DNA of 64,000 bases, from contig JAQBZO010000003.1 of the NCBI GenBank assembly GCA_027622195.1, positions 62,001-126,000 of the forward strand, given 5' to 3'. Of the stretch, positions 17,297 through 60,300 are shown piece by piece. A program made the position numbers and the translations under genes. The first letter of the stretch is position 1. Each line of letters begins with the position of its first letter. A model generated the notes under the pieces. It was not told the DNA's origin. It was given only the letters and a program-made list of their open reading frames with translations, and made no database searches. This stretch comes from Planctomycetota bacterium (GTDB lineage Bacteria > Planctomycetota > Phycisphaerae > Phycisphaerales > SM1A02).

Positions 17297-17370
17297 GTCC
17301 GCGTAGCTCAATTGGATAGAGCGTCGCCCTCCGAAGGCGAAGGTTGCAGGTTCGATTCCCGCCGCGGACG
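17297..17370 (+). tRNA. tRNA-Arg(CCG)
   Basis: 74 bases fold as a cloverleaf. The acceptor GTCCGCG pairs with CGCGGAC, with discriminator G. The D arm is GCTC...GAGC, the anticodon stem TCGCC/GGCGA with loop CTCCGAA, and the T arm GCAGG-TTCGATT-CCCGC. Anticodon CCG reads the Arg codon CGG. No CCA is encoded. The MazG-like gene starts 8 bases after it. Confidence 0.96.
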
Positions 17371-17378
17371 CTTCTCCT

Positions 17379-53597: not shown

Positions 53598-54140
53598 ATG
53601 AGCCGAGTTCGAAGACCACTGGCTGCGCCGCCATCGTGTGAGGGAATGTCGCAGCACGACATGCCGATGGCTCCCTTGTGCGCGGTGTTTCGTCGCTACT
53701 TGAGATCGCAGGGATTGAAGTACACGACCGAGCGCGCTGAGATTCTCGAAGGGATCATTGAGTGCGACGGCGTTTTTGAGGCTGAGGAGTTACTGCTGGA
53801 GTTGCGTCGAGGCGGTCATGATGTCTCGAAGGCCACGGTGTACCGAACCATCAACCTCCTGATCGCGGCGGGCATCATCATTCAAGCCCTCTTCGACTCG
53901 AAACAGTCGCACTATCAACTGATCTATGGCAAGGCTCCTCGCGACCACATGGTTTGTTTGCACACGGGCAAGTTGGTCGAGTTCGTGAGTCCTGAATTGA
54001 TCGTGCTACGTGACCGAATCTGTCGTGAACTGGGATGGGAGCCGGTCGCTCACCGATTTCAGATTTATGCATTGAGTCCCCAAGGCAGCGCGGTGATTGC
54101 TGCTGCCGTGAGTCAAGAGGAAGAGTCAGATCGCGGTTGA
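53598..54140 (+). CDS. Fur-family regulator
   Basis: 180 residues, or about 158 from a later Met (53646-53667). The winged helix has LKYTTERAEILEGI and VSKATVYRTINLL, and the dimer/metal part has HYQLIYGKAPRDHMVCLHTGKLVEF. The Fur His-rich region (DHMVCLHTGKLVEF) is kept, but the usual CxxC of the structural zinc is missing: Cys-Val-x-Cys appears as C-L-H-T. The metal could be Fe, Zn or Mn, and no target site is identified. The last 15 bases overlap tsaE. Confidence 0.85.
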   Translation: MSRVRRPLAAPPSCEGMSQHDMPMAPLCAVFRRYLRSQGLKYTTERAEILEGIIECDGVFEAEELLLELRRGGHDVSKATVYRTINLLIAAGIIIQALFDSKQSHYQLIYGKAPRDHMVCLHTGKLVEFVSPELIVLRDRICRELGWEPVAHRFQIYALSPQGSAVIAAAVSQEEESDRG

Positions 54141-54572
54141 TCGTTCGTCATGAATCGTGACGAATCGGCCCTCGGCGACATGTTCGATGTGGATGCACAG
54201 ACATTGTTTCGGGAACGCTGTCCGCACGCGAGTGGACCACTCGACCGCAATGACTGTGTCGCTCGTCGCAAGGAGTTCCTCGAGGCCGATTGAGGCGCAC
54301 TCTGCCGCAGATTGCATTCGATACGCATCGATATGAACGAGACGAACATCGCGTCCTTGGTAACTCTGCATTGAAACAAAAGTTGGACTCGAGACGGAGC
54401 GCTCGTCGCATCCAAGACCTCGGGCTATCCCTCGAACGAGGCAGGTCTTGCCAGAACCGAGTTCGCCGTCGAGGCAAATGCAATCGCCAGGCGCCATCAG
54501 CGATGCAATGCGCTCGCCGAGTGATTCCATTTCCGCCGCATTGGGAACAATCATCGTGCGCGTCTGGTTCAT
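54126..54572 (-). CDS. tsaE: tRNA threonylcarbamoyladenosine ATPase TsaE
   Basis: 148 residues from ATG 54572, where the start overlaps the thiL stop as ATGA. The P-loop is DGELGSGKT, followed by SPTFVSMQSY and HIDAYRM, then the family Trp in AVEWSTRV. It works with TsaB and TsaD to make t6A37 in ANN-reading tRNAs. It is the last gene of the kdtA-thiL-tsaE operon, convergent with the Fur-family gene. Confidence 0.94.
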   Translation of the reverse strand: MNQTRTMIVPNAAEMESLGERIASLMAPGDCICLDGELGSGKTCLVRGIARGLGCDERSVSSPTFVSMQSYQGRDVRLVHIDAYRMQSAAECASIGLEELLATSDTVIAVEWSTRVRTAFPKQCLCIHIEHVAEGRFVTIHDERSTAI

Positions 54573-55477
54573 GAGGAATGGTGGTCCCATCCTTCAGCCA
54601 CAATGTCAATCCAAACGCCATCTTGGTGCATGCGAATGGTGCCGCAATCATCTCCGGCGCGAGCGACCGATCCGATACGCGTTACGGGAACACCCGCGGC
54701 GAATGTCGGCACATCACCTCGCGCTGTGAAGAGTAACTCGTAGTCTTCTCCGTCGCGGATCGCTTGGGCGATAGTGCATCCGGCACTGCACGGAATCGCA
54801 CTCGATTCAATTTCGATATGGACGCGTGAAGCATTGGCAAGGCGACCACCATCCACGCCGAGCCCATCGCTGACATCCATCATGGCCGTGAGGCGCTCGC
54901 CGAGCGAGTCGATGAGGTCATGCGCCGCAGCGAGTCGTGGTTCGAAGTGAAGATGTCGCCCGAACCCATCTCCGAAGGATCCACCAAGTGTTCCTGTGAC
55001 GAAGAGTCCATCTCCAACGCGTGCTCCCGAGCGAGTGACAATTCGCTCGGATGGACCAGCACGTCCGACGACCGCCACCGAAATCGAGAATGGCGTTTGT
55101 GAGGAGGCGTGAATCGATGTGTCACCGCCGACGAGCGGACATCGGTGCGCATCGCTCATCGAGACGAGTCCGTCGAGCAAGTTGGAAACATGATGCATGG
55201 ACATGTCGGGTCGAAACTGGGCGCATGCGATGCACGCCACCGGAAATCCACCCATCGCAGCGATGTCACTCAGATTGCGGGCGATGGCCTTTCGTCCGAC
55301 GAGTTTCCAATCGGTTCCACGCACGAAGTGGACTCCCTCGATGATGGAATCCCCGCCAAAGAGGGGTGTCGTCGAAGAATGGGGGAGTGCGGCGAGGTCG
55401 TCTCCAGGACCGAGGACCCCCCTTCCACCGATGCGCGATTGAATGCACGCGAGGATGTCGGATTCACGAAGCGTCAG
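54569..55477 (-). CDS. thiL: Thiamine-monophosphate kinase
   Basis: 302 residues if it starts at CTG 55477. Family motifs: LGPGDDLA, ARNLSDIAAMGG, LVGGDTS, MDVSDGLGVDGG and DGEDYELLFT. It phosphorylates thiamine phosphate to thiamine diphosphate. No ATG, GTG or TTG is in frame near the family start; the only ATG is 60 codons further left (55657), inside kdtA. CTG 55477 overlaps the kdtA stop (55474-55476) as CTGA, behind a run of nine G (55482-55490 complement) that could serve as ribosome site. The tsaE gene is coupled by ATGA. Confidence 0.9.
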   Translation of the reverse strand: MTLRESDILACIQSRIGGRGVLGPGDDLAALPHSSTTPLFGGDSIIEGVHFVRGTDWKLVGRKAIARNLSDIAAMGGFPVACIACAQFRPDMSMHHVSNLLDGLVSMSDAHRCPLVGGDTSIHASSQTPFSISVAVVGRAGPSERIVTRSGARVGDGLFVTGTLGGSFGDGFGRHLHFEPRLAAAHDLIDSLGERLTAMMDVSDGLGVDGGRLANASRVHIEIESSAIPCSAGCTIAQAIRDGEDYELLFTARGDVPTFAAGVPVTRIGSVARAGDDCGTIRMHQDGVWIDIVAEGWDHHSS

Positions 55478-56742
55478 AGAGCCCCCCCCCGCTTTGACGC
55501 GCTGAATTGAAGGGCTTCGGCGACGAGGGCTGCGTTGCGCTTCGTTGCACCTTGATGAGCCCGTACGACATCGCGCCCCGCTGCAGCCATCGCTGCGCGG
55601 CGCGGTTGATCTTGGAGCAACGCGTGAATGACATCGGCCAGTTGAGTGCGAGCGCACTCGATCGCGCCACCCGCCTGAGTCAATGCGTCAGCTGTTTCTC
55701 GAAAGTCGCCGACGGATGTTCCGAAGACAACCGCCTTCCCGAGCGCGACAGGTTCCATCATGTCGCTTCCGTACAGATTGAAGAATGAACGACCAACAAC
55801 GACGACGTCCGCGAGAGAATAGGCCTGACGAAGTTCTCCAATGGTGTCGAGGAGAAAGCGATCGGTACTCGACTGGGAATCTCCCGCTGACCTTCTTGAG
55901 CAACCTGGCAATACCATCGCCGCTTCATCGAAACGCTCAGTACGACGAGGGGCGCAAAGCAACTGCACTCCTTCTGGAACACACTGATGCAGGAGTGATT
56001 CTTCACCGGGACCGGTTGAACCAGCCACGACGAGCGGACGAGTGGGATCGATTCCCATCGATGCCCCGAGGGCGCGTGCGCCGTCGACTGTATCGGCGAT
56101 GCGCGCCTCGTCCCATTTCATGGTGCCTCCAACGCGCACCGAATTGGAGTCTGTTCCCATCGCACGAAACCGCTGCGCGTACAGTTCGTTTTGCGCAACG
56201 ACGCCGAAGAGAGATCGAAACATCGATCCCACAAAGAATCGAAAAGCGAAGTAGCGACGAAATCCTCGGTTGGAGATTCGTCCGTTGACGACCACGATTG
56301 GAATGGATCGATTCGAGCAGATTCGTGTGAGATTGGGCCACAATTCGAGTTCGACGCAGACGAGGACATCGGGATCCACCGCTGTCAGGAAGGATCGAAC
56401 GAGGGGCGAGGCATCGAATGGAAACCGCAGCACTATTCGCTTCGAGTGATGGACCTCGAGCGCTCGTGCGAATCCAGCGGGAGTTGTCACCGTAACGACG
56501 ACCTCAGGGTGGTTCGGCAGCGCCTCGATGGCGTCGATCAGTCCGCGAGAGGTGTTGACTTCTCCCACTGACACCGCATGGATCAGGACTCTTGGCTGTT
56601 TCTTGCGCGCGAGTGGAGTGGAAAACCGAAATCGGTCGCGCCACGCCAACCACTTTCGATGGCGAAGCGCAGCGAGCACGATCCAGATCGGACTCGTCGC
56701 CACTGCCCCTGCCAAGTACATCAGATCGACGACCGCAACCAT
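55474..56742 (-). CDS. kdtA: 3-deoxy-D-manno-octulosonic acid (Kdo) transferase
   Basis: 422 residues from ATG 56742 (56763 is also open). One N-terminal membrane helix is followed by the GT-B fold: IHAVSVGEVNTSRGLI, DPDVLVCVELELWPN, VVVNGRISNRG, GGTMKWD and the donor site LADVVVVGRSF. It adds Kdo to lipid A at the inner membrane, evidence for an LPS-containing outer membrane. It is the first gene of kdtA-thiL-tsaE. Confidence 0.95.
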   Translation of the reverse strand: MVAVVDLMYLAGAVATSPIWIVLAALRHRKWLAWRDRFRFSTPLARKKQPRVLIHAVSVGEVNTSRGLIDAIEALPNHPEVVVTVTTPAGFARALEVHHSKRIVLRFPFDASPLVRSFLTAVDPDVLVCVELELWPNLTRICSNRSIPIVVVNGRISNRGFRRYFAFRFFVGSMFRSLFGVVAQNELYAQRFRAMGTDSNSVRVGGTMKWDEARIADTVDGARALGASMGIDPTRPLVVAGSTGPGEESLLHQCVPEGVQLLCAPRRTERFDEAAMVLPGCSRRSAGDSQSSTDRFLLDTIGELRQAYSLADVVVVGRSFFNLYGSDMMEPVALGKAVVFGTSVGDFRETADALTQAGGAIECARTQLADVIHALLQDQPRRAAMAAAGRDVVRAHQGATKRNAALVAEALQFSASKRGGAL

Positions 56743-56778
56743 CCCGCCATCGTATCTCCTCATCTAGGATCAGGAGTC

Positions 56779-59700
56779 GTGGTCCATCAGTGGTTCATCG
56801 CAGTGGATGTGGGCGGTACTTTTTGTGACGCGATTGCTGTCGCGCCTGATGGACAGATTCTGCGCGCGAAGATTCCAAGTGCAGCGGAATCTCGTCACGA
56901 CGGCGGACTTGCCGCTCCACTGGCGATTGCACATCAACTGACGAATACACCGCTTGGCACTCCGCTTCCTCTGATCCATCTTCGAGTGGGTACGACTCGT
57001 GGGACGAACGCGCTCCTTGAGGGACGAGTGAGTGCGGTGTGCGCTGTCCTGCCCGAAGGACTTGTTGACATTCTCGAACTCCAAGATCAGCGTCGCCCCG
57101 ACTTGTTCGCTTGGCATCCCACTCGAAAACGCCCTCCCACTGCGGCTCGCGTGACGACGAACGCAAGAATTGCATCGAATGGAATGGTGTTGCAACCACT
57201 CACGAAGACGGAATGTGACAGAGTGGTCGACGCGGTTGTGGCATCGAAGACCGATGCCGTGGCGATTGCACTCTTGCACGCCGATGTCGATCCTTCGCAT
57301 GAACAGCAACTGGCGAGTGCCATTCGTTCTTCAGTGGCGCACGCCTTTGTCACGACGAGTCATGCGATGGGGCGCGTCTCTGGCTTCGTCGATCGTGCTC
57401 GTGCGGCGCATGTGAATGCATTGCTTTCAGGCTCGATTCAGTCCTTTATGGATGAGATCTCGCAAGGACTGACCGAGGGAAGTTCGCTTTTCATGATGTC
57501 GAGTGCGGGTGGACTCTCACACTCGACCTTGTTTCAGCCGAAGGACAGTCTGCTTTCGGGTCCCGCAGGTGGAGTGCGCGGAGCGTTGGCAGTCTCACTG
57601 CGACTTGGTCTGGGCCCGACACTCGCCTTCGATATGGGAGGCACGAGCACCGACATCAGTCGATTCGACAACGACATTCCGATCTCGTTCAAGACCACGG
57701 TGGGCGATGTCACGATTGAAAGTCCTTCGACCACGATCGACACCATTGCTGCTGGAGGTGGAAGCATCGTGTCGTGCATTGGAGGAGAGATTCGAATCGG
57801 ACCCGCTAGCGCAGGAAGTCATCCAGGTCCTGCCTGTTACGGTCGCGGCGGACCGCTCACACTGACGGACTTGAATCTCCTCGCCCATCGACTCGGCGAA
57901 TTGCCCATCCCGATCTTTCCAGATGCTGCATCCGCGCGATTCAATGACCTGCACGCCCAGTTCGAGCAAGCGCGTGGTCCAATCCAAAAGCGGCTATTCA
58001 TCGAATCACTCATTGCCCTCGCTGATGAAATGATGGCGGCGGCTATTCGGCGGACTGCCGTGCGCTTGGGACATGATCCATCCGATCACACATTGCTCGC
58101 CTTTGGTGGTGCAGGTCCACTTCACGCCTGCTCAGTTGCTGAAAAGTTGGGAATTGACCGCGTTCTGGTACCAGTCGATGCGGGACTCCTTTCCGCGTGG
58201 GGTATCGCGTCGGCTCACCGTGAGTCAGTCGCACAGCGCAGCATGCGAATCCTCTTGTGCGAATCGAAGAGCATTCACGCGCTCCTTCAGGAACTCGATG
58301 GCGAGGCTCTTGCGTCATTCCATGACCAACCTCTAGACGCATCGGTCGTGCGCCGCATTGTCACACTTCGATTGCAGGGACAAGAATCGTCGCTCTCGAT
58401 TGAATGGGGTGAAACGACTCCGGTCGAAATCATCGGGTGGTTGCGGAGTCGTTTCGAGGAAGAGTATCGGCGTGTGTATTCGAGCGAAGTGGGCGCAAGA
58501 GCGATCGAAATCGAGGCGGTGTTGGTCGTCGCTCGCTCAATCCACTCTCGTCCCACAGCGCGTGACGAGGTCGCGACGGCATTCTCGCAGTCGGGACCGT
58601 GTGTGATCCCTCGCATGGACTGCACGATGTTTGTTGCGGATGGATGGAGAGCAAAGACACTCGAAGACGGATCGATGGAGATGATGCGTGAGCAGTCGGT
58701 GAACTCCCCCACTGCGTCGCCGATGCTCGAAGAAGAAATCTTCTCAGCACGAGTGCGCGCCGTCGCGGATGAAATGGGCGAGCAGCTGCGGCGAACGGCC
58801 GTGAGCGTCAATGTGAAGGATCGACTCGACTTTTCATGCAGTGTGCTCGACAGCGATGGATGGCTTGTCGCGAATGCGCCGCACCTTCCTGTGCACCTTG
58901 GCGCGATGGGCGCATGCGTTCGCTCCACCGTGGCGCGGCTCAATCCAAGCCCAGGTGAAGCGATCGTCGTGAACCACCCTGCCTACGGTGGAAGTCACCT
59001 CCCTGATATCACCGTCATCACCCCTGTCTTTGCGCGGGGCACCTCGCAGCGCATCGCCTTCGTGGCGAATCGTGCGCATCATGCCGAACTCGGAGGAATG
59101 CTCCCAGGGTCGATGGCGCCATTCGCGCAGTCGCTCTCTGAAGAAGGAATCGTCTTTCCACCAACGCTCATCATGCGAGGAGGGGTGACCGATTTCGGTG
59201 CATTCTCGAGTTGCTTGCGAAACGCCCCGTTTCCGAGTCGGCAACCTCTCGAGAACGAGCTCGACCTCGCAGCGCAGGTTTCATGCAACGAGGTTGGATC
59301 GTTGCAGATCCAGCGACTCGCCGAAGCACTCACCGTCGAGGGACTGCGCGATCGATTACAACTTCTCAGAGACACAGCGAGGCGTCGCGCGCAAGTTGCG
59401 GTCGAGAGTCTTCCAGCCGATGAACTGATCGCGCATGAACGACTCGATGATGGGTCACCTCTTGCCGTGCGTATTCGTCGTCGTGGTGGACTCGGTCACC
59501 GAACGCTCACGATGGACTTCACTGGAAGTGCATCCATTCACTCTGGCAATTTCAATGCGCCCGAAGCCGTTGTGCGCAGTGTGGTGATGTATGTGCTGCG
59601 TCTCATCGCTGGTCGTGAGCGTCCCTCTGAGGCTTCGGGGATGGTGCTCAATGAGGGGTTTCTCGCCGATGTCACGCTCACTGGAATGGGCGGCATGGTG

Positions 59701-60300
59701 GGGACAATGCCCGCCGACATGAACGCGTGGCCCGCTGTGGGCGCAGGGAATACTGAGACGAGTCAGCGCTTGACCGATCTCCTACTGAAGGCGTGCCAAG
59801 TCGCGGCGTGCAGTCAGGGCACGATGAATAATCTTCTCTTTGGAAGTGCGCAGTTCAGTTGTTACGAAACAATCGCTGGAGGCGCAGGAGCAACGAGCGC
59901 CGGGTCAGGGCTCAGCGGCATCCACACTCACATGACCAACACGCGTGTCACGGATCCTGAGATTCTCGAGCGCCGACTTCCTGTGCGGTTGGAACGATTC
60001 GAGTTGCGAGCGGGAAGTGGCGGAGACGGTCTTCACCGCGGCGGAGACGGCGTGATTCGGACCATTCGATTTCTCGAGCCGGTGAGCGTGACGCTCCTCT
60101 CGCAGCACAGAGTCGAGGCTCCATATGGCATGAATGGCGGGATGGAAGGATTGCGTGGTGCGCAGTTCATACTCCGCGCGAATGGAAGTGCCGAGATCGT
60201 TGACGGAGTCATGACTGCTGAACTCAGCGCTGGCGATGCGATTGAGATTCAGACCCCCGGTGGAGGCGGATGGGGAGATCCGACGCGTCACTCCCTGTGA
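56779..60300 (+). CDS. Fused hydantoinase/oxoprolinase A and B subunits
   Basis: 1173 residues from GTG 56779 (AGGATCAGGAG lies just upstream). Residues about 1-640 are HyuA-like: VDVGGTFCD, GTTRGTNALLEG, FDMGGTSTDIS and FGGAGPLHACSVA. Residues about 660-1173 are HyuB-like: FSARVRAVADEMGEQLRRTAVS, HPAYGGSHLPDI, RAHHAELGGM and GAGATSAGSGLSG. The fusion resembles eukaryotic 5-oxoprolinase. It would hydrolyse 5-oxoproline or N-methylhydantoin with ATP; which one is unknown. The HyuA box has Cys in GGTFCD where GGTFTD is usual. A 124-base gap with no gene follows. Confidence 0.92.
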   Translation: MVHQWFIAVDVGGTFCDAIAVAPDGQILRAKIPSAAESRHDGGLAAPLAIAHQLTNTPLGTPLPLIHLRVGTTRGTNALLEGRVSAVCAVLPEGLVDILELQDQRRPDLFAWHPTRKRPPTAARVTTNARIASNGMVLQPLTKTECDRVVDAVVASKTDAVAIALLHADVDPSHEQQLASAIRSSVAHAFVTTSHAMGRVSGFVDRARAAHVNALLSGSIQSFMDEISQGLTEGSSLFMMSSAGGLSHSTLFQPKDSLLSGPAGGVRGALAVSLRLGLGPTLAFDMGGTSTDISRFDNDIPISFKTTVGDVTIESPSTTIDTIAAGGGSIVSCIGGEIRIGPASAGSHPGPACYGRGGPLTLTDLNLLAHRLGELPIPIFPDAASARFNDLHAQFEQARGPIQKRLFIESLIALADEMMAAAIRRTAVRLGHDPSDHTLLAFGGAGPLHACSVAEKLGIDRVLVPVDAGLLSAWGIASAHRESVAQRSMRILLCESKSIHALLQELDGEALASFHDQPLDASVVRRIVTLRLQGQESSLSIEWGETTPVEIIGWLRSRFEEEYRRVYSSEVGARAIEIEAVLVVARSIHSRPTARDEVATAFSQSGPCVIPRMDCTMFVADGWRAKTLEDGSMEMMREQSVNSPTASPMLEEEIFSARVRAVADEMGEQLRRTAVSVNVKDRLDFSCSVLDSDGWLVANAPHLPVHLGAMGACVRSTVARLNPSPGEAIVVNHPAYGGSHLPDITVITPVFARGTSQRIAFVANRAHHAELGGMLPGSMAPFAQSLSEEGIVFPPTLIMRGGVTDFGAFSSCLRNAPFPSRQPLENELDLAAQVSCNEVGSLQIQRLAEALTVEGLRDRLQLLRDTARRRAQVAVESLPADELIAHERLDDGSPLAVRIRRRGGLGHRTLTMDFTGSASIHSGNFNAPEAVVRSVVMYVLRLIAGRERPSEASGMVLNEGFLADVTLTGMGGMVGTMPADMNAWPAVGAGNTETSQRLTDLLLKACQVAACSQGTMNNLLFGSAQFSCYETIAGGAGATSAGSGLSGIHTHMTNTRVTDPEILERRLPVRLERFELRAGSGGDGLHRGGDGVIRTIRFLEPVSVTLLSQHRVEAPYGMNGGMEGLRGAQFILRANGSAEIVDGVMTAELSAGDAIEIQTPGGGGWGDPTRHSL

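Follow-up and report, generated by a model that had tools for sequence, protein, structure and literature searches.

A candidate CTG start codon of thiL at its overlap with kdtA in a Planctomycetota bacterium

The kdtA-thiL junction

We analyzed a stretch of 64,000 nucleotides (hereafter, the window) from the draft genome of a Planctomycetota bacterium (46 contigs, 1.79 Mb, 88% complete). The minus strand carries kdtA, thiL and tsaE in succession (Table 1). The long frame of thiL matched the NCBIfam family TIGR01379 with an E-value of 1.7e-52 and 178.4 bits; this score falls just short of the curated cut-off (184.15) and is the highest among the 14 families listed for this frame. PDB chains of ThiL also matched the protein (best E = 5e-27), with the alignment running from query residue 25, at the GDD motif, onward. 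The best named match belongs to a Phycisphaerales MAG (46% identity), and a single copy of thiL was found in the draft genome. The upstream gene matched the NCBIfam Kdo transferase (E = 8.7e-74), its 248.5 bits falling short of the curated cut-off (438). When read from its first ATG, tsaE would overlap the end of thiL.

Table 1. Features of the kdtA-thiL junction (positions in the window)
Feature	Position	Strand	Evidence
kdtA (Kdo transferase), 429 codons	55474..56763	-	Pfam PF04413, E 7.4e-48
thiL (thiamine-phosphate kinase), 302 codons from CTG	54569..55477	-	TIGR01379, PDB ThiL chains
tsaE, next downstream of thiL	54126..54590	-	TIGR00150, 103.3 bits (cut-off 60.1)
CTG, proposed thiL start codon	55475..55477	-	Place and frame as GTG in G001 and ATG/GTG in 28/67 adjacent junctions
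ACG, alternative near-cognate start, adjoining CTG	55472..55474	-	L079 has ATG at the ACG codon (CTGATG)
G9 run, proposed Shine-Dalgarno site in kdtA codons	55482..55490	-	Anti-SD duplex of -10.6 kcal/mol (predicted)
GTG, rival start (ThiL 60 residues longer); sole in-frame ATG/GTG/TTG upstream	55655..55657	-	Anti-SD duplex of -10.4 kcal/mol (predicted)

Read on the minus strand, the last kdtA codons are AAG CGG GGG GGG GCT CTC TGA, the stop codon lying at 55476-55474 and the run of exactly nine G falling within kdtA codons. The first-pass annotation had described a CTG that shares bases with this stop as CTGA, and we confirmed it at 55477..55474: CTG is in the thiL frame and TGA is the kdtA stop. 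If CTG is the start, the two genes overlap by four bases and the start codon shares two of them (TG) with the stop. A scan of the minus strand confirmed the absence of a usual start at the junction, since there is no ATG, GTG or TTG in the thiL frame from GTG 55657 to GTG 55324. The former, which is the closest canonical codon upstream, lies 60 codons away inside kdtA; the latter, the closest downstream, lies past the GDD motif. From CTG, thiL reads CTG ACG CTT followed by a RES motif, and GDD comes 24 codons downstream of CTG. Between GTG 55657 and RES, CTG is the only codon of the ATG/GTG/TTG/CTG set in this frame.

The comparison within the genus comprised three genomes: that of the window and two congeners, G001 and G002. 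Window ThiL is 56% identical to that of G001 over query residues 4-301 of 303, and it has an open frame of 302 codons. Where the kdtA stops align, G001 has GTGACG and the window CTGACG, with the same ACG codon and with thiL in the same -1 frame relative to kdtA; counted from this junction, G001 ThiL would have 10 extra codons ahead of the shared part. The frame of thiL relative to kdtA is +1 in G002, whose nearest ATG lies 52 bases after the kdtA stop begins. Neither congener has a G run at the aligned place. The KdtA proteins end in KRGGAL* in the window and in WRGPIS* and WRGPIG* in the congeners, in register when the run has nine G, and each has 22 residues after the shared AHQGAT. The kdtA match in G002 (L041, G002:C55:48622-49914) was reported with one internal TAG, its open frame being 433 codons. 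The window is largely syntenic with a single G002 contig (C55) from about 6600 to 63750.

These alignments bear on the suggestion, made from the sequence of the window, that the G run could be a sequencing indel. This is disfavored because nine G keeps the KdtA C-terminus in register with both congeners. As reasoned from the congener alignment, eight or ten G would break this register, and we rejected indels of any length other than a multiple of three, as these would put the end of KdtA out of register with both.

Start codons of thiL in the family and of other genes in the window

We further surveyed thiL in 127 genomes of the family, one locus in each and the window among them. A match was found in 157 genomes, the other 30 of which lie outside the survey, as do nine named loci. 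Six loci from other families of the order (L025, L027, L031, L033, L035 and L038) were also omitted from the 127; each has GTG at the usual place of the thiL start. For each locus we took the canonical codon closest to GDD among those 22 or more codons ahead of it, a criterion that tells the availability of a start and not its usage. The GDD anchor was found automatically in 124 of the 127 loci. The nearest ATG, GTG or TTG was located 22 to 45 codons before GDD in 123 of these, and 84 codons before it in the window; the three unanchored loci (L098, L151 and L153) have ATG at the usual place. A canonical start was available near the expected place in 126 of the 127 loci, the window being the exception. 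It is this lack of a canonical start that sets the locus apart. The spacing of 24 codons from CTG to GDD falls within the range of the other anchored loci. The homology of ThiL had been described as beginning exactly at the junction; this needs a small correction, since CTG lies two codons before the position of the commonest start of the family, M-R-E-[SF].

kdtA adjoins thiL in 67 of the 127 loci, the window included, adjacency being defined as a kdtA stop at most 150 bases from the projected N-terminus of ThiL. Of these 67 junctions, 31 place thiL in frame -1 relative to kdtA; over the kdtA stop, 21 of them have ATG, seven GTG, two CTG and one GTA. An ATG or GTG framed like the CTG of the window thus overlaps the kdtA TGA in 28/67 adjacent junctions (the genomes are related and these counts are not independent), which supports the earlier assignment of the thiL start to CTG. 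The two junctions with CTG over the stop are those of the window and of L079, the latter not being a second case, with an ATG directly after the CTG. One in-frame TGA was seen in each of two thiL matches, L029 (G035:C45:685838-686803) and G046:C1:3110797-3111609, for which errors, frameshifts or decay are possible.

We also compared the window with G002:C55 and G001:C17, which gave 55 non-overlapping homologous frames. Three of these (w343, w280 and w279) were dropped by position, being antisense to a long plus-strand frame at 56578-60300, and 52 candidate frames were kept. Frames were flagged when no canonical codon occurred from -40 to +20 codons around the start of homology. Six frames were flagged: w343, w280, w392, w110, w123 and thiL. 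Closer inspection cleared w392, w110 and w123 of any need for CTG, since each has an in-frame ATG or GTG and its homology is carried upstream by a tRNA-Arg gene or by out-of-frame conservation. Only thiL lacked a canonical start among the 52 kept frames, and no broader use of CTG was seen among them. Within this single 64 kb window, the CTG start looks isolated. The tRNA-Arg gene (ccg; 17297-17371, plus strand) faces the 5' end of a frame on the minus strand and gives spurious protein homology upstream of the start of that frame.

The G run as a proposed ribosome site

We estimated the pairing of the G run with the 3' tail of 16S rRNA using the anti-Shine-Dalgarno tail GGATCACCTCCTTTC, which was read in the 16S of another member of the family (G010) and not in that of the window genome. 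A 16S gene was not found in the window genome or in G001; in G002, two 16S matches (G002:C62:61799-63144, L169 and L170) end at model position 1387 of 1533. The predicted duplex of the G run ranks fourth of 30 NTGA junctions, and an equal or stronger upstream duplex was predicted for 23 of the 1882 CTG triplets of the window.

G-rich stretches were also found at the same place in other genomes. A run of G6 or G7 lies in the 20 bases before the thiL start in five of the 66 other adjacent junctions (L092, L110, L135, L144 and L145). The other 61 present G5 in three cases and no run longer than four in 58, and the nine G of the window form the longest run. This comparison supports the proposal of the first-pass annotation that the run is a ribosome site. 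As for the recurrence of the run itself in relatives, it is missing from both congeners and is seen as the shorter G6-G7 in those five junctions. In the sequences compared, G-rich sites appear to recur before thiL while the long run is not conserved. Most simply, the run is an over-long Shine-Dalgarno site. Chance could by itself account for a run of this length: 22 of 100 shuffles of the window contained two or more G8 matches, and runs of eight or more G recur in the genome.

Translation start of thiL

Based on these results, we consider that thiL probably starts at the CTG at 55477-55475 and produces a separate protein through initiator fMet-tRNA, by a coupled restart after kdtA for which the nine G would act as the ribosome site. 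Ribosomes would end the translation of kdtA at the overlapping TGA, the G run would pair with the anti-Shine-Dalgarno sequence of 16S rRNA so that ribosomes are held or recruited, and these would restart one base back at CTG, decoded by initiator fMet-tRNA. The junction would thus represent the usual ATGA/GTGA overlap of kdtA and thiL with its start codon weakened to CTG and with a strong ribosome site. What supports this directly is the geometry of the junction, the homologous GTGA and ATGA junctions, the strong predicted duplex and the missing canonical start. From these we infer the initiation at CTG, the coupling to kdtA and the offsetting of a weak codon by a strong site. Several features count against CTG: CTG starts are very rare, the other kept frames of the window do not need one, ThiL of G001 would be longer at its N-terminus and that of G002 starts differently, and most other adjacent junctions lack a long G run. 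In addition, the adjoining ACG has the same ribosome site, and the site of GTG 55657 is nearly as strong; the latter weighs against certainty. Overall, the CTG start and the ribosome site initially proposed for this locus find support, and the fusion and indel proposed alongside them do not.

Bacteria can start translation at CTG, albeit poorly. The rep gene of FIB plasmids is reported to start at a CTG with a good ribosome site, as shown by mutation, and changing CTG to CTC in the pO157 replicon abolished replication (PMC11983097). The same source quotes 20 CTG-start genes among nearly 85,000 annotated genes and an expression from CTG about ten times lower than from TTG. Initiation complexes on CUG are described as less stable than those on AUG, GUG or UUG (PMC11497404). 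A reconstruction of start codon evolution gave one switch from GUG to CUG among 5,080 reconstructed GUG starts, and strong Shine-Dalgarno sites were commoner at GUG- and UUG-start genes, the direction of the linked changes being left unsettled by its authors (PMC5622118). The locus resembles FIB rep in its proposed CTG start and good predicted ribosome site. It differs in being a chromosomal enzyme gene within a gene overlap and in being read from sequence, whereas FIB rep was proven by mutation (PMC11983097). It also resembles the start-stop overlap pairs (ATGA or TGATG) described by Huber et al. (2019; PMC6728339), with co-directed genes, a 4-base overlap and a Shine-Dalgarno-like stretch inside the upstream gene, here predicted at -10.6 kcal/mol. 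Unlike the pairs described there, the proposed start is CTG and the overlap CTGA, and it is we who infer the coupling here.

The novelty of a CTG start at thiL is low because CTG with a good ribosome site has already been proven for FIB rep. The overlap with the kdtA stop nevertheless fixes the site, which provides a clean comparative case for placing the start at CTG, and thiL becomes one more candidate for the short list of CTG starts. The locus also fits the published but non-conclusive idea that strong Shine-Dalgarno sites accompany weak start codons. A reading of the genes restricted to ATG, GTG and TTG would start thiL 60 codons too early, or past GDD.

An error in the consensus sequence has a small but appreciable chance of explaining the missing start. 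The true base would then differ and thiL would begin with GTG, ATG or TTG, or with ATG in place of ACG. The genome is a draft of limited completeness, CTG is one base away from the GTG of G001 at the same place, and a canonical start is available in each of the other 126 loci of the survey. However, the surrounding sequence is clean, the kdtA stop is in register and thiL is open throughout. No independent copy of the junction was found by an exact 26-base search of viral contigs (0 matches).

It is improbable that ThiL starts instead at GTG 55657 inside kdtA, with an N-terminal extension of 60 residues out of frame with kdtA. This is the sole canonical in-frame start upstream and it is preceded by a G-rich site with a nearly equal predicted duplex (Table 1), but its distance to GDD is 84 codons, as compared to 22 to 45 codons among the other 123 anchored loci (by the nearest-codon criterion, under which longer proteins are formally possible). 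Furthermore, G001 has no ATG, GTG or TTG in frame over the 100 kdtA codons before its junction GTG, and thiL of G002 is in another frame. Stop codons do not decide on the extension, the frame being open over the last 60 codons in the congeners too.

We attach a similarly slight probability to a start at ACG 55474 or ATT 55507 rather than CTG. ACG directly follows CTG behind the same G run, and L079 carries ATG at this codon, but ACG is a still weaker start than CTG. ATT is among the weak but functional starts of E. coli (PMC13068326, citing Hecht et al.), although the ATT of this locus has no ribosome site (-0.7 kcal/mol).

Another reading with little chance is that of a thiL decaying in this lineage after the loss of its start codon. 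The missing canonical start and the small size of the assembly (1.79 Mb, 88% complete) are in line with decay. Yet the gene keeps 302 open codons and its identity to G001 over nearly the entire protein, and it is the only copy found and lies beside kdtA as in the congeners.

Slippage to a KdtA-ThiL fusion, which had also been proposed, is unlikely. The frame arithmetic of this proposal is correct: one extra G in the transcript, or a -1 ribosomal shift on G GGG GGG, would join kdtA to thiL, and the run permits in-register re-pairing. As in the fusions by programmed -1 frameshifting or transcriptional slippage described in PMC5009743, a homopolymer stands in a frame-compatible place; the locus differs from them in that the congeners do not conserve its run and frame, folding showed no notable structure downstream of the run and relatives have separate thiL start codons. 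Indeed, both congeners lack the run, the frame relation in G002 is +1, and none of the other 126 loci of the survey lacks a canonical thiL start of its own. Folding against shuffles revealed no notable RNA structure at the junction (z = 1.42 and 0.62): for the 91 bases from the run onward (z = 1.42), 184 of 200 shuffles were at least as stable, pseudoknots being outside the fold. A fusion made in this way is accordingly very improbable. Still more doubtful, to the point of being barely credible, is a slippage-prone switch in this core gene pair, by which run length would give CTG-started ThiL, KdtA with an altered tail or the fusion; if it were true, changes in run length would set the dose of ThiL in a fraction of cells.

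Genome-wide, we counted 15 G runs of at least eight, four of which have at least nine. By eye, the other genomic runs of at least eight showed no consistent position before starts, and a general role for G runs was dropped on this ground. One more case of a G run close ahead of a potential start was observed at about 1501-1513 of L001 (G000:C4:113817-113824), where G8 is followed by two bases and then by an ATGA within an open frame of 96 codons.
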